Below are positions 32,771 through 39,105 of a stretch of 64,000 bases of DNA, piece by piece. The translations under genes and the position numbers were made by a program. How positions within the stretch are numbered: the first letter of the stretch is position 1; each line of letters opens with the position of its first letter. Origin of the DNA: Rhodococcus qingshengii JCM 15477 (GTDB taxonomy: Bacteria; Actinomycetota; Actinomycetes; Mycobacteriales; Mycobacteriaceae); the NCBI RefSeq assembly GCF_023221595.1, contig NZ_CP096563.1, positions 518,501 through 582,500 on the forward strand, written 5' to 3'. The notes beneath the pieces were generated by a model. It saw only the letters and a program-made list of their open reading frames with translations, ran no database searches and was not told the DNA's origin.

Positions 32771-34456
32771 TCAGGGAAGCTGAGCAGGCAGGACGTGCTC
32801 ACCGGTCTTGTCGGTGCTCAAGGCCAGGGAGCTGATGTACTGCTTCTCGCCGTTCGGGCCGGGCACGTTCGACGCGAGCATGTCGGGACGCTCGAATTCG
32901 ATTCCGCTGACGCAGCACAGAAGCGTTTCACCGGAGGGGTTCCCGTACTCGTCGAACATCGGCAGATCGATGCCGTCGTCGGTGCGTCGTAGGTAGTACT
33001 TTCCCTTGGTGGCGACGGCCAGGATCGGCGGCATCACCAGTGCGATGACGATTGCGACGATCGGGGAGAACGGCTTGATCGCCGAACCGAAAGCACCGAA
33101 GAACACCAGGATCGAAATGCCCGCGGCCAGCAGCATCGACACGAAGCCGACGGGGTTGACGTCGTAGAGCATCCCGCGTCGGAACTCGGGGACTTTCGGG
33201 GAGAGCTTCAACCAGTACTTGTTGATCGCGATGTCCGAGGCGACGACCACGACCCAGGCGATACCGCAGTTGGCGTAGAACCCGAGGATCGTGTTGAGGA
33301 AGTCGAACATGTTGGCTTCCATCAAGATCAGTGCGATCGCCAGGTTGACCAGAACGAAGACCATGCGTCCGGGGTAGGTCTTGGTGACGCGGGTGTACGA
33401 GTTGGTCCAGGCCAGTGAGCCGGAGTACGCGTTGGTGACGTTGATCTTGATCTGGCTGATGACCACGAGGATCACGGCCAGCGTCATGGCCAGCCAGTGA
33501 GGCATCATGTCCTGGTAGATCTCGAGGAACTGGTGCACGGGCTGGTTGGCGATCGAGGATCCGTCGACGACGTTCGCGATGATGTACACGGCGAGGAACA
33601 GTCCGACGATCTGCTTGAACGCGCCGAAGATCACCCAGCCGGGGCCGGCGAGAATTACTGCAGCCCACCAACGGCGGGTGTTTTCCGGCGTCTTGGGCGG
33701 CATGAAGCGTAGGTAGTCGATCTGCTCGGCGATCTGTGCGATCAGCGACAAGCAGACACCCGCGGCCAGCATCACCGATCCGAAGTTGACGCCCTTGCCG
33801 TTTGCGCCGTCCTCACCGCCGAAGGCGAAGAACGCGCTCACCGAATCAGGGTGCTTGAACAGCAGATACAGGAACGGCAGCACCATCATGACGAGCCACA
33901 GAGGCGTCGTCCACACTTGGAGCTTTGCCAGAGCCTTCATTCCGTAGATGACCAGTGGAATGACCATCAGGGTCGAGACCGCGTAGCCGATCGAGAGTGG
34001 GATCCCGAGCCCCAGTTTCAAACCCTGGGCCATGATGGAACCTTCGAGCGCGAAGAAGATGAAGGTGAACGTCGCGAAGATGACGTTGGTGACCACCGAG
34101 CCGTAGTAGCCGAAACCGCTTCCGCGAGTGATCAAATCGAGGTCGATATTGTATCGCGCGGCATAGTAGGCAAGTGGGAAGCCGGTCGCCATGATGACGA
34201 CGGCAAACACGGCGATGCCCAGCAATGCGTTACCGGTGCCGTACGAGATGCCGATGTTGGCGCCGATCGAGAAGTCTGCGAGATACGCGATTCCGCCGAG
34301 CGCGGAGGTCGCGACGACGCCGGTTCCCCATTTGCGGTAGCTGCGTGGCGCAAATCGGAGGGTGTAGTCCTCCAGAGTCTCCTTCAGTGCGGCATTCTCA
34401 CCGAGATCTGCCCTGTCCGGTGCGCCGGCGGACACCTGCTCGTTCACTGCTGTCAT
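32771..34456 (-). CDS. NCS1-family nucleobase/amide-type permease
   Basis: 561 residues of the purine-cytosine/uracil/allantoin NCS1 symporter family, about 12 helices. Family blocks are LGGIAYLADFSIGANIG, the helix-1 discontinuity GTGNALLGIAVF, and the QIKINVTNAYSGSLAW segment. It exceeds the common 450-500 residues because of a cytosolic tail of about 70 residues (YLRRTDDGIDLPMFDEYGN, LLCCVSGIEFERP). ATG 34456 has GGGGAAG seven bases upstream. It is the last gene behind the amidase operon, so its solute may be an amide, urea derivative or nucleobase whose catabolism releases amides; this is inference. Confidence 0.85.
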   Translation of the reverse strand: MTAVNEQVSAGAPDRADLGENAALKETLEDYTLRFAPRSYRKWGTGVVATSALGGIAYLADFSIGANIGISYGTGNALLGIAVFAVVIMATGFPLAYYAARYNIDLDLITRGSGFGYYGSVVTNVIFATFTFIFFALEGSIMAQGLKLGLGIPLSIGYAVSTLMVIPLVIYGMKALAKLQVWTTPLWLVMMVLPFLYLLFKHPDSVSAFFAFGGEDGANGKGVNFGSVMLAAGVCLSLIAQIAEQIDYLRFMPPKTPENTRRWWAAVILAGPGWVIFGAFKQIVGLFLAVYIIANVVDGSSIANQPVHQFLEIYQDMMPHWLAMTLAVILVVISQIKINVTNAYSGSLAWTNSYTRVTKTYPGRMVFVLVNLAIALILMEANMFDFLNTILGFYANCGIAWVVVVASDIAINKYWLKLSPKVPEFRRGMLYDVNPVGFVSMLLAAGISILVFFGAFGSAIKPFSPIVAIVIALVMPPILAVATKGKYYLRRTDDGIDLPMFDEYGNPSGETLLCCVSGIEFERPDMLASNVPGPNGEKQYISSLALSTDKTGEHVLPAQLP

Positions 34457-34591
34457 GACGTCACTTCCCCTGGGTGCCTGTGCATGTGCACTTTGTGGTG
34501 CAGGCACCCAACCTAGGGAGGTGGCGTTACGCGGACATGTTTGAAATGTGTCGCCCACGTTGCGGATTCGATCCGCAACGTGAGCGAGCAC

Positions 34592-35650
34592 TCATGGGAC
34601 TTTCTTTACCTGTATCTGATCACCAACTGCCCGCGCCTGCAAGGCGAGTGGTTGCGTCCCGACCGGCCGAAGGTCGAGAACGGCGGCGGCCACCGGGTCG
34701 GCCAAGACGTTCCGGATGGTGCGGCGCAGGCCACGTGCTCCGTACACCGGGTCGAACCCGCGCCGTTGCAACAGGGCGACGGCGCAGTCCTCCACCTCGA
34801 CGTCGATGCCTCTCCTGGCCAACCGAGTCGTGATCAGTTCGATCTCGAGACGGGTCACTTGTTCCGCGGTCTGTTCGTCGAACTCGTCGAGGATCACGGT
34901 TTCGTCGATGCGGTTGAAGAATTCGGGGTCGAAGAACTTCTCCAACGCGCGTTGCACCAGATGATGACCATGGCGCGGTCGATCGATCCGGACGCGATCG
35001 GCGAGCTGCCGCAGGTGGGATCGCCGACGTTCTGCCACCGCAGCAGAGCCGAGATTCGAGGTCAGGAACACGTAGCTGTTGCGGAACGAGATCTTCTGCT
35101 GACCGTTCGCCAACCGGAGTTCGCCGTTGTCGAGGACCTGCAGGAGCGCACGCAGCACGGTGGGGTCGGCCTTCTCCACTTCGTCGAACAGGACGATTCC
35201 GGGGGTGTACGGATCGCCCTCGACGGTGTTCTTGTCGAACAGCGTGAAGGACTCCTTGCTACCGGCATATCCAGGTGGAGCCCCGGAGAACGACGCCGCA
35301 TAATGCTCTTGCGCAAGAGCATTCATGTCGATGCGGCACAGATCATCGGGTCCTGACCGTAGTTCTGCGGCCACGCGCCGCACCAATTCCGTCTTGCCGA
35401 CGCCGGTCGGGCCAACGAGAAGGATGTTGGCGAGCGGACGCGTCGGATCCGTGGCACCGACATGCGCGATCGAAATCGCACGAACCACTGCGTCGACGGC
35501 GGCCTGTTGTCCGACGATCTTGGAACTCAGGGCTTTCGAGAGCTTGCGAGCGTCGAAGGCCCCGACCGGTACGGGTTCGGTTCGTTCCTCGGCCGGCGGT
35601 GGTGCTGCTGCACTGTTCCGGTCATGGAGCATGTCGGTGATATAAGGCAC
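34592..35650 (-). CDS. AmiB-like single-ring AAA+ (ClpB/ClpA D2-type) ATPase
   Basis: 352 residues comprising one AAA+ module: SKIVGQQAAVDAVVRAI, Walker A GPTGVGKTEL near 80, Walker B IVLFDEVEKAD near 150, sensor-1 LTSNLGS, arginine-finger region FFNRIDETVIL and the C-terminal D2-small domain (FDPVYGARGLRRTI). It lacks the N-domain and D1 ring of ClpB. Pseudomonas aeruginosa has such a protein (AmiB) next to its amidase, with no proven function. GTG 35650 starts eight bases after the AAGGAT near the amiE stop. Confidence 0.85.
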   Translation of the reverse strand: MPYITDMLHDRNSAAAPPPAEERTEPVPVGAFDARKLSKALSSKIVGQQAAVDAVVRAISIAHVGATDPTRPLANILLVGPTGVGKTELVRRVAAELRSGPDDLCRIDMNALAQEHYAASFSGAPPGYAGSKESFTLFDKNTVEGDPYTPGIVLFDEVEKADPTVLRALLQVLDNGELRLANGQQKISFRNSYVFLTSNLGSAAVAERRRSHLRQLADRVRIDRPRHGHHLVQRALEKFFDPEFFNRIDETVILDEFDEQTAEQVTRLEIELITTRLARRGIDVEVEDCAVALLQRRGFDPVYGARGLRRTIRNVLADPVAAAVLDLRPVGTQPLALQARAVGDQIQVKKVP

Positions 35651-36724: not shown

Positions 36725-37347
36725 TCAGTTGAAGACTGGACGGGATTGGGGTACTGCGGTTTTGGGTGCAGCGAGGATCTTGGCCAGGCCCAGGAGAACC
36801 AGAAGCGCTCCGGCCCAACCGGCCGCGACGGCGGGTGTGGTGTGGAAGTTGTCGGTCAGGATCAGAAATGCGGGGACTGTGCACGTGGGCTGGCTCAGGA
36901 GGACCGCTGCCCAGCCGGTGAAGCGACTGAGATTCTCGCGGCCGAGCCCGAGTACCAGGAAGAACAGCGTCCACAGCGCTGCCCATGCGAGCCAGATGAC
37001 CCCGAAGACGGGGTCGTTGCTCACTGTGAAAGAGAGGAAGGAGTACACGAGCGCGGCGCACGCGACGAACAGCGAGAACCACACCCGATTCCTTCCGGCT
37101 CGAAGCCGGCGAGATTGCTGATGCCCACGTAGAGATAGGTGAATCCGAACAGATAGAGCCCTGAGGCCGCCAGGACAGCGCTCGAATCTCCCTGAGCCTG
37201 AATCAACATGACGGTGGGGACGACGCATTGAAGTGCGCCGACGAAGAGGTTGAGGACCGAGGCGGATCGAACGGGAACTGTGCCGAGCAGCATCAGTCCG
37301 TTGACGAAGAGGACGGCTCCCACGTAAAGCAAACCAACACTGCCCAT
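36725..37347 (-). pseudogene. amiS: AmiS/UreI-family amide channel, disrupted by a 2-bp duplication
   Basis: The first 85 or so codons from ATG 37347 read MGSVGLLYVGAVLFVNGLML through YLYVGISNLAGFEPEGIG, then run into a wrong frame. The homologous continuation, WFSLFVACAALVYSFLSF to the stop at 36725, is in another frame. Removing one TG (CA on the plus strand) from 37080-37083 restores GIG-WFSLFVA and one 206-residue, six-helix protein. AmiS/UreI proteins conduct amides or urea. The start has GGAGGTG, and the operator at 37376 is intact. It may be a real loss-of-function mutation, a phase-variable CACA tract or a sequencing error. Confidence 0.85.
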
Positions 37348-37375
37348 CGGGCACCTCCGGTTACTTCGGGACGGT

Positions 37376-37394
37376 TACTTTCAAATGAAATGAT
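37376..37394. promoter_or_regulatory. Amide-cluster operator, copy A (amiS-amiE promoter)
   Basis: TACTTTCAAATGAAATGAT is the exact reverse complement of the 19-mer at 38581. It contains TTTCA-AA-TGAAA symmetry and is followed by a second degenerate AAATGAAAC. It lies 29 bp before amiS. Confidence 0.8.
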
Positions 37395-37455
37395 TCCAAA
37401 TGAAACTAAGTGATGCGCGCCACAGAAGTCAAGAGGTGGATCTCAGGGGAAGGTT

Positions 37456-38535
37456 TCAGAGGGTGGCGATGATCGAGAAGTCGAGTCCGTCGGCGACGGC
37501 GAGCTGAATCTTCTGCCGTGCAACACGATCACGAAACTCGACGGTTCCGCGAGGCCCGTCGTACGCGGCACCCTCGACGACGGCGTCCAGGTCACGCGGA
37601 TGTGTGCTGTCGGCGCGTCGAACCAGGGCCGAAAGGGTATGTATCCCTTCGTAACACGATTCGGCGGCATTGTTCAGCGCCGGAGCGTGCGCGCCGTGCA
37701 GTGCAACGTAGCGCCCGAGAAGATCCATGGAGTTGCCGTCGACCATCGAACGGAAGTACGCGGCGGAGGCAAACAGGTTGCGGGTTGCCCTCGGCCCGCT
37801 CGCGAGCAGCATGTTCTCTTCCATCAACGGGCTGAACCGGATCATCGACTCGTCGAGGCCGCGGCGGGCGAAGGCGCGGTTGAAATCGACGGCGTCCTGG
37901 CCGACGAGGAGCATGATCACGCCGTCGCAACCGGAGTTCGAGACGGTCTCGACCAACTGCTTCATGTTTCCGCGCCCGAGGTCGACAAACGAACCGCCGA
38001 CCAGGCTGAGATCGAGTTCGGTGGCGAATTGCCTCACGGCTCCGAGAGAGCTGTGCGGCCAGATGTAGTCGTCCCCGACGACAAACCACTTACGCGCTCC
38101 GACGTTGTCGCGCAGCCACTTCAGCGCCGGCGCGATCTGCTGACGTGGTGTCTCACCCGAGCAGTAGATGCCGGACCTGACCTCGCCGCCCTCGTAGAGC
38201 GAGGTGTACGAGTACGGAATACGGCCTGCGACCACCGGTGCGAGTGCGTGGCGGACCGAGGAGATGTGCCAACCGCTGACGGCGTCGATGTCGCCGGCGT
38301 CGAGTAGTTGTCCCACGCGGGCGGCGACGACGCTCGGCGTCGCGCCGCCGTCGATCACTTCGATCTGGACTTCGCGTCCCAGTACGCCACCGGAGTTGTT
38401 GAGGTCGCGGGCGGCCAATTCGCTGATTGCTTCGCAGGAGGGGCCGAACAGTCCGGCCGGCCCCTGAAGGGGAAGCACCATGCCCAGGCGCCACACCGCG
38501 CTGCGCGCGCGTTCCAGCGCGCCGGTAGCGCTCAT
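37456..38535 (-). CDS. amiC: AmiC-like cytoplasmic amide sensor
   Basis: 359 residues with the periplasmic-binding-protein type I fold of AmiC/UrtA: RLGMVLPLQGPAGLFGPSCE, DLNNSGGVLGREVQIEVIDG and DAVSGWHISSVRHAL. There is no signal peptide or lipobox, so like P. aeruginosa AmiC it should work in the cytoplasm as a ligand sensor rather than a transporter component. There is no AmiR antiterminator gene; a divergent MarR gene takes the regulator position. ATG 38535 opens the leftward cluster. Confidence 0.87.
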   Translation of the reverse strand: MSATGALERARSAVWRLGMVLPLQGPAGLFGPSCEAISELAARDLNNSGGVLGREVQIEVIDGGATPSVVAARVGQLLDAGDIDAVSGWHISSVRHALAPVVAGRIPYSYTSLYEGGEVRSGIYCSGETPRQQIAPALKWLRDNVGARKWFVVGDDYIWPHSSLGAVRQFATELDLSLVGGSFVDLGRGNMKQLVETVSNSGCDGVIMLLVGQDAVDFNRAFARRGLDESMIRFSPLMEENMLLASGPRATRNLFASAAYFRSMVDGNSMDLLGRYVALHGAHAPALNNAAESCYEGIHTLSALVRRADSTHPRDLDAVVEGAAYDGPRGTVEFRDRVARQKIQLAVADGLDFSIIATL

Positions 38536-38580
38536 GCGTCGCCGCCGGAATCGGGAGTCAGCGGCCTGGCCTGGGTTACT

Positions 38581-38599
38581 ATCATTTCATTTGAAAGTA
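38581..38599. promoter_or_regulatory. Amide-cluster operator, copy B (amiC-marR divergent promoter)
   Basis: ATCATTTCATTTGAAAGTA, identical in 19 of 19 bases to the complement of copy A. It sits in the 107-bp gap between amiC and the divergent marR gene, so one regulator can control both promoters of the cluster. Confidence 0.8.
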
Positions 38600-38642
38600 T
38601 TGCCCGAGAAGTGTGAACTGCGCAACAGCGGGGGAGCGATCA

Positions 38643-39068
38643 GTGGGAAAAAGTGACTCCGGAATTCTTGATGCGTCGCTGACGACTGCGCTGGTCCGAG
38701 CAGCTCGAATGGCCGCGGCAGCGGCGGAGAAGGCGCTGGCGGCAGAGAATCTCACTCTTGATCACTGGATGACGCTCGAAGCCCTGGCGTCGACCGAGGG
38801 GCTGACGATGGCTGAGCTGCGCGATCGAACGGGAACACCGGCTCCGACGCTGACGCGAGTTGCGGACAAGTTGGTCTCGCTGGCGCTTATCTACCGCGAG
38901 GTCGGTGAGGACGATCGCCGGAAGGTACGCGTGTTTCTCTCCTCGCGCGGAAAGTCCTTGCACAAGCGGGTTGCCGCAGACATTCGCGTAGCCGAGGAGT
39001 CCTGGCTGACGTCGAAAGAGGAAGTGAAGTTGCGAGAGGGGCTTCGCCCCTGTGTGCCTTTCCGGTAG
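38643..39068 (+). CDS. MarR-family regulator of the amide cluster
   Basis: 141 residues from GTG 38643 (GGGGAG six bases upstream). The winged helix is TMAELRDRTGTPAPTLTRVADKL followed by the wing EVGEDDRRKVRVFLS. M. smegmatis also has a MarR-type protein (AmiA) in its amidase operon, so repression of amiC/amiS-amiE is the likely job, through the two identical 19-bp operators. The last seven codons (LRPCVPFR) and the stop are supplied by the left arm of a hairpin element, which may have replaced the native end of the dimerisation helix. Confidence 0.85.
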   Translation: MGKSDSGILDASLTTALVRAARMAAAAAEKALAAENLTLDHWMTLEALASTEGLTMAELRDRTGTPAPTLTRVADKLVSLALIYREVGEDDRRKVRVFLSSRGKSLHKRVAADIRVAEESWLTSKEEVKLREGLRPCVPFR

Positions 39069-39097
39069 TGGGGACTACCAAAAAGGCGCACAGGGGC
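39046..39097. terminator. 24-bp hairpin, CTGTGCGCCTTT family, copy 2
   Basis: 39046-39069 pairs with 39074-39097 (24 bp, three mismatched or wobble positions, GGGG loop). The arms share CCTGTGyGCCTTT with copy 1. The TAG stop of the marR gene is inside the left arm, and acs converges nine bases beyond the right arm. Confidence 0.88.
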
Positions 39098-39105
39098 CGA
39101 AGGTC

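Follow-up and report, generated by a model that had tools for sequence, protein, structure and literature searches.

Candidate MarR operators at the regulator and amidase promoters of an AmiC-associated cluster in Rhodococcus qingshengii

In the amidase cluster of Rhodococcus qingshengii JCM 15477, an AmiA-type MarR protein probably represses the amidase operon, its own gene and amiC through two identical 19-bp elements, and this repression would be relieved by the amide-loaded sensor protein AmiC. The sites at both places are very likely MarR operators, as related palindromes recur there in diverged Actinomycetota. The analysis was centred on a window of 64,000 nucleotides (C1:518501-582500), by which we mean the whole stretch of DNA under study. 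Its relevant features are the following, with positions counted from the first base of the window.

38643..39068, plus strand: marR, AmiA-like, 141 aa from the GTG at 38643; an upstream GTG at 38613 would give 151 aa
38581..38599, plus strand: copy B of the 19-mer, lying between amiC and marR at distances of 45 bp to the start of amiC and 43 bp to the likely start of marR
37456..38535, minus strand: amiC, amide/urea-type binding protein, 359 aa (Pfam Peripla_BP_6, 2.7e-70)
37403..37432, minus strand: predicted amiS-amiE promoter, -35 box TTGACT at 37427-37432, 18-bp spacer, -10 box TAGTTT at 37403-37408
37394..37405, minus strand: second palindrome TTTCATTTGGAA, with a centre-to-centre distance of 15 bp to the first palindrome
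37376..37394, minus strand: copy A of the 19-mer, 28 bp before the start codon of amiS, containing the palindrome TTTCATTTGAAA at 37379-37390
36725..37347, minus strand: amiS, amide channel (AmiS/UreI), frame broken in the assembly, first part of 108 aa
35661..36698, minus strand: amiE, aliphatic amidase of the nitrilase superfamily (NCBIfam equivalog NF009802, 1.8e-211; Pfam CN_hydrolase)
34592..35650, minus strand: stand-alone ClpB-D2-like AAA protein, 352 aa (Pfam AAA_2 and ClpB_D2-small), 10 bp behind amiE
32771..34591, minus strand: membrane-transporter-like protein, 606 aa, called by eye

The 19-mer ATCATTTCATTTGAAAGTA is present in the 64-kb window at 38581-38599 on the plus strand and at 37376-37394 on the minus strand, without mismatches, just as the first-pass annotation had claimed for the two promoters of the cluster. 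Its core TTTCATTTGAAA, described there as a symmetric TTTCA-NN-TGAAA, is indeed a perfect 5+5 palindrome around two bases. No third copy was found in the window at up to three mismatches, and 100 dinucleotide shuffles gave none. The same threshold applied to the whole genome (G000, 7,513,265 bases in 6 contigs), a scan that the annotation had proposed, returned exactly the two known copies in 7.5 Mb and no match for the reversed 19-mer, so that many unrelated genomic copies do not occur. A looser 13-position pattern, TTTCANNTGAAAGTA, yielded one extra genomic site at up to one mismatch (C1:5317128, one mismatch), and its reversed control yielded two. Both copies are retained in the four close relatives inspected (L004-L007): copy B is identical in all of them, and the palindrome of copy A is kept in all four, with one base of the 19-mer differing outside the palindrome in L007.

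Next to copy A lies a second palindrome, TTTCATTTGGAA, which had been overlooked previously. Together the two palindromes form a tandem operator at 37379-37405 with a distance of 15 bp from centre to centre. TTTCATTTGGAA was found in all four close relatives, with one base altered in L006. The tandem pair has a single exact site in the genome; the sole other place within three mismatches has three of them. A chance origin of the repeat is ruled out by the window scan, the genome scan, the shuffles and this single exact tandem.

The tandem operator stands in a fixed relation to the predicted promoter in front of amiS-amiE, as the last three bases of the predicted -10 box TAGTTT are the first three of the operator. 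A promoter of the form TTGNNN-17/18-TANNNT precedes amiS or amiE in 15 of 16 loci, some of them closely related, the exception being L051, and in each of these 15 the operator begins exactly three bases downstream of the first position of the -10 box. A strict scan for E. coli-type sigma-70 promoters gave none in 37300-38750; it misses the predicted promoter because TAGTTT matches TATAAT at just three of six positions. The fixed register is the strongest sign of the way in which the sites would work: a protein bound there would lie over the -10 box as well as the start site.

The conservation of these elements was then assessed over a wider set of loci, using the ten fixed positions of TTTCA-NN-TGAAA as the scoring consensus. 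Among 25 loci picked as distinct, the palindrome in the amiC/marR gap reached 9-10 matches to this consensus, which derives from the window locus itself, in 14 and eight in four, while seven loci (L035, L036, L053, L068, L075, L077 and L079) had at most seven. These counts do not represent independent events because some of the loci are close to each other (L046/L064/L069; L050/L051). Near-duplicates had been omitted from the 25 (L034, L042-L044, L052, L055-L063, L065, L070, L074, L076 and L080), as had L078, L082 and L084, in which the layout is not divergent, and L054, which lacks AmiC. In a separate set of 30 loci, none of which is among the 25, the 19 divergent ones were scored with a looser consensus and showed ten matches in nine cases, nine in one, eight in eight and six in one; the other 11 have a different layout and were left unscored.

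For 14 of 15 structural promoters with amiS or amiE in reach, the score of the 15-bp tandem was reached by none of 200 dinucleotide shuffles; the exception is L050, which has no site before amiE. Three of these promoters (L033, L048 and L051) combine one strong with one weak palindrome. The loci cover Prescottella, Hoyosella, Amycolatopsis, Actinosynnema, Nonomuraea, Nocardia and Mycolicibacterium; no site was present in the Promicromonospora locus (L053). The weak gap site in 7 of 25 loci indicates that control of the amidase is better conserved than autoregulation. The earlier idea that one operator serves the sensor and regulator genes at once is thus plausible, yet weakened by these seven loci.

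Furthermore, the genes of the cluster were compared with domain and structure databases. Pfam and NCBIfam uphold the names amiE, amiC and marR as well as the AmiS/UreI family assignment. One point needs correcting, in that the amiS frame is disrupted in the assembly. In all four close relatives this frame is intact at 206 aa; the break may reflect a real loss or an assembly error. The marR product contains a MarR winged-helix domain (PF12802, MarR_2, 2.3e-12; PF01047, 2.6e-8), and its nearest named relatives, with 96-98% identity, come from Rhodococcus erythropolis, R. qingshengii and two Rhodococcus strains without species name. By eye, the marR frame ends within a hairpin-like stretch (38984-39098) between marR and the convergent acs, which leaves MarR with a short C-terminus; this end of the protein is likewise short in L033, L035 and L036.

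The AmiC of the window matches P. aeruginosa AmiC (1pea) by sequence at 9.5e-13. Its domain starts at residue 15 of the longest open reading frame, and as the 14 preceding residues leave no room for a signal peptide, the protein is predicted to be cytosolic. Among 26 relatives, the longest start leaves 7-19 residues before the domain in 17; a longer start is open in eight (L045, L047, L049, L050, L051, L053, L073 and L075), and no start codon was found in one.

The ClpB-D2-like AAA gene is a probable member of the amidase operon, and the transporter-like gene, a conserved neighbour in all four close relatives, is probably its last gene. The transporter-like protein had no match in Pfam (to E 1), NCBIfam or PDB sequences. 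Two side observations concern these genes. AAA proteins with 50-68% identity occur near nitrilase-type amiE in several genera (L035, L036, L045, L046, L049, L087, L093 and L094). In L088, a transporter-like relative with 82% identity immediately follows the MarR gene; amiC is divergent there, and the 12-kb stretch examined contains no amiE match.

The association of AmiC with this type of MarR protein was examined by means of profile A1, which was built from the MarR alignment A1; a protein search with A1 detected 229 relatives with E values of 1e-12 or lower, without gene context. Profile A1 matched in 238 of 301 family genomes, most of these matches being weaker and probably due to other MarR proteins. 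Loci were fetched for all 14 named cases, for the best 30 of the family-genome matches of the profile and for 30 of the 37 members of a further match set. The resulting 74 rows correspond to 64 distinct loci, ten being repeats. An AmiC-like gene lies in the fetched flank of the MarR gene in 63 of the 64, divergently in 49, on the same strand in 13 and convergently in one; the single locus without it, Bradyrhizobium L054, is a weak match. Beside less similar MarR proteins AmiC was found in none of 21 loci (L012-L032). In the window, amiC (37456-38535, minus strand) adjoins marR (38643-39068, plus strand) divergently.

AmiA of the mycobacterial system reportedly binds near the amiA/amiD promoter in gel shifts, and deletion of amiA is said to result in constitutive expression. 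A review (PMC12719403) describes AmiA of M. smegmatis as a negative regulator, but AmiC and AmiD as positive ones, and amiCADSE is named as the mycobacterial acetamidase locus in another text (PMC5974015). We used L085 and L086, chosen by layout, to stand in for the M. smegmatis locus. L085 carries, in this order, amiC, amiA, a gene for an AmiD-like zinc ribbon, amiS and an FmdA/AmdA-type amidase gene (PF03069); amiC, amiA and amiS follow the same order in L086. The AmiA of L085 aligns with the window at 38748-39014 (37%, E 4e-14) and is also found by profile A1 (genome G234). The M. smegmatis locus, the closest known system, pairs the AmiC sensor with the AmiA repressor and also includes AmiS and an amide-inducible amidase. 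Like the window, L085, with its amiCADSE layout, combines a MarR-type AmiA, AmiC and AmiS with 15-bp tandem palindromes at the structural promoter. By eye, the palindromes of L085 and L086 lie after amiA (in L085 between amiA and amiD), where they extend over the -10 region and the spacer of a TTGACA promoter, in a register other than that of the AmiE-type loci. By homology, the putative sensor/repressor pair of the window corresponds to the AmiC/AmiA pair in the acetamidase locus of mycobacteria, and the AmiC-MarR pairing is seen, on comparison with L085, to survive both an altered gene order and a swapped enzyme.

The two arrangements differ in several respects. L085 has an FmdA/AmdA-type amidase, whereas that of the window is the nitrilase-type AmiE (NF009802, CN_hydrolase) and the best FmdA match in the window reaches only E 0.42. 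In the window, moreover, the amidase operon follows amiC instead of marR. The AmiD-like zinc-ribbon protein encoded between amiA and amiS in L085 has no counterpart in the window (best tblastn E 0.09), and we therefore speak of a variant module and not of an amiCADSE operon. What is added to the known system is the operator, its conservation and the occurrence of the module before a nitrilase-type amidase without AmiD. Among the open-licence papers listed in literature searches, no report of a Rhodococcus amidase-AmiC-MarR system or of the operator was found, and a literature text search for the two 12-mer forms of the palindrome returned four papers, all unrelated by title.

P. aeruginosa AmiC/AmiR antitermination (1pea, 1qo0) resembles the window in that an AmiC-type amide sensor is tied to an aliphatic amidase; it differs in that the ANTAR-domain protein AmiR is replaced in the window by a DNA-binding-type MarR protein. 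Ten ANTAR matches above and one below the cut-off were found in the genome, none of them in the window (C1:518501-582500), and the nearest on its contig lies about 460 kb beyond the window end. A nearby AmiR-type partner was accordingly rejected. The earlier claim of a signalling logic different from that of P. aeruginosa agrees with the lack of an ANTAR match in the window; as a novelty it does not hold, the AmiC/AmiA pair being known from amiCADSE. In the amide-inducible nitrile hydratase clusters of Rhodococcus rhodochrous J1, an AmiC-like protein and a second regulator are said to take part in control.

From these comparisons we propose the following mechanism. The MarR protein encoded beside copy B would occupy both 19-mers as likely operators and would thereby repress the operon of amiS, amiE, the AAA gene and the transporter-like gene as well as the expression of marR and amiC. 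Comparison lends good support to the claim of a single MarR protein acting on both sites, namely through the recurrence of the sites next to this MarR gene in diverged genera and the proximity of tandem sites, parS-like ones set aside, to such MarR genes. One MarR dimer per palindrome may block RNA polymerase by occluding the -10 box together with the start site, and two adjacent dimers may keep the structural promoter under tighter control than that of the regulators. Amide entering the cell would be bound by cytosolic AmiC, and amide-loaded AmiC would relieve repression by acting on MarR, most simply through binding it. Sensing would then be outsourced from MarR to a separate partner of the periplasmic-binding-protein fold. 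The sign proposed for AmiC is the reverse of that in P. aeruginosa, where amide-free AmiC holds the activator AmiR silent. Somewhat more tentatively, one could imagine a split repressor, in which cytosolic amide-loaded AmiC pulls the MarR dimer off the paired, -10-linked palindromes and which, together with its 15-bp operator code, serves across the Actinomycetota as a portable module before two unrelated amidase folds, the nitrilase-type AmiE and the FmdA type.

The least certain step is that AmiC would act through MarR rather than beside it. MarR could bind the operators and itself sense an amide or another ligand, with AmiC serving as a parallel amide buffer or acting elsewhere. Many members of the MarR family bind their ligands directly, and the solved structures matched by the sequence of the window MarR are those of MarR-family proteins such as SlyA, OhrR and HpaR. 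We nevertheless consider direct sensing doubtful, as an AmiC-like gene stands beside that of MarR in 63 of 64 loci, in three orientations, but in none of 21 loci with less similar MarR proteins, and as AmiC is reported to be a positive regulator in M. smegmatis (PMC12719403). The latter point also bears on a further alternative, in which amide-free AmiC is a co-repressor that holds MarR on the DNA until amide breaks the complex. There is a precedent in P. aeruginosa, where the AmiC-AmiR complex is reported to silence AmiR under non-inducing conditions (PMC13209695). The positive role reported for AmiC in M. smegmatis (PMC12719403) makes such a co-repressor improbable; an anti-repressor fits better.

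The specificity of the tandem arrangement was analyzed in the family genomes. At up to one mismatch the tandem pattern is present in 49 of the 301 genomes. Of the 49, 36 have a copy whose core is of the CACGTG type (in some with one deviating base), 15 have a copy with a different core, and two have both kinds. We take the CACGTG-type tandems to be parS sites of ParB. They have the form TTTCACGTGAAAC-N-GTTTCACGTGAAA, or near forms of it, with 15-bp spacing, in 36 of 301 family genomes (L138-L165, e.g. L161, L163 and L164), and equal the ami operators in skeleton and spacing but not in the core. All 15 non-CACGTG tandems lie on the same contig as an AmiA-type MarR gene identified by profile A1, at distances of 148-4033 bp; one of the 15, in G206, counts for MarR proximity only, its AmiC neighbourhood not being part of the count. 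Among the 30 genomes in which MarR matched best, all with AmiC adjoining, the strict tandem (up to one mismatch) occurs in only 14 and is absent from 16; genomes without it have diverged sites, single sites or none that can be scored.

That another protein binds the palindromes, e.g. ParB at degenerate parS sites sharing the TTTCA-NN-TGAAA skeleton, is suggested by the TTTCACGTGAAA-type tandems of equal 15-bp spacing in 36 of 301 family genomes but is highly improbable and was rejected, because the ami sites of the window genome have the core TT and not CG, its four exact GTTTCACGTGAAAC sites form one cluster (C1:6398575-6401655) that is remote from the window (518501-582500), and all 15 non-CACGTG tandems are near an AmiA-type MarR gene.

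The acetamidase regulators of M. smegmatis serve in acetamide-inducible expression vectors, as stated in the same review (PMC12719403). No text settling how AmiC and AmiA work together was found in those portions of the literature that the search covered. With a precise and conserved operator, consisting of paired palindromes with 15-bp spacing in a fixed register to the predicted -10 box, this question becomes directly testable. The operator could also yield a small inducible promoter part for Rhodococcus. If the proposed mechanism is true, the AmiA-type protein would be a MarR repressor whose signal comes from a partner protein and not from a small molecule.
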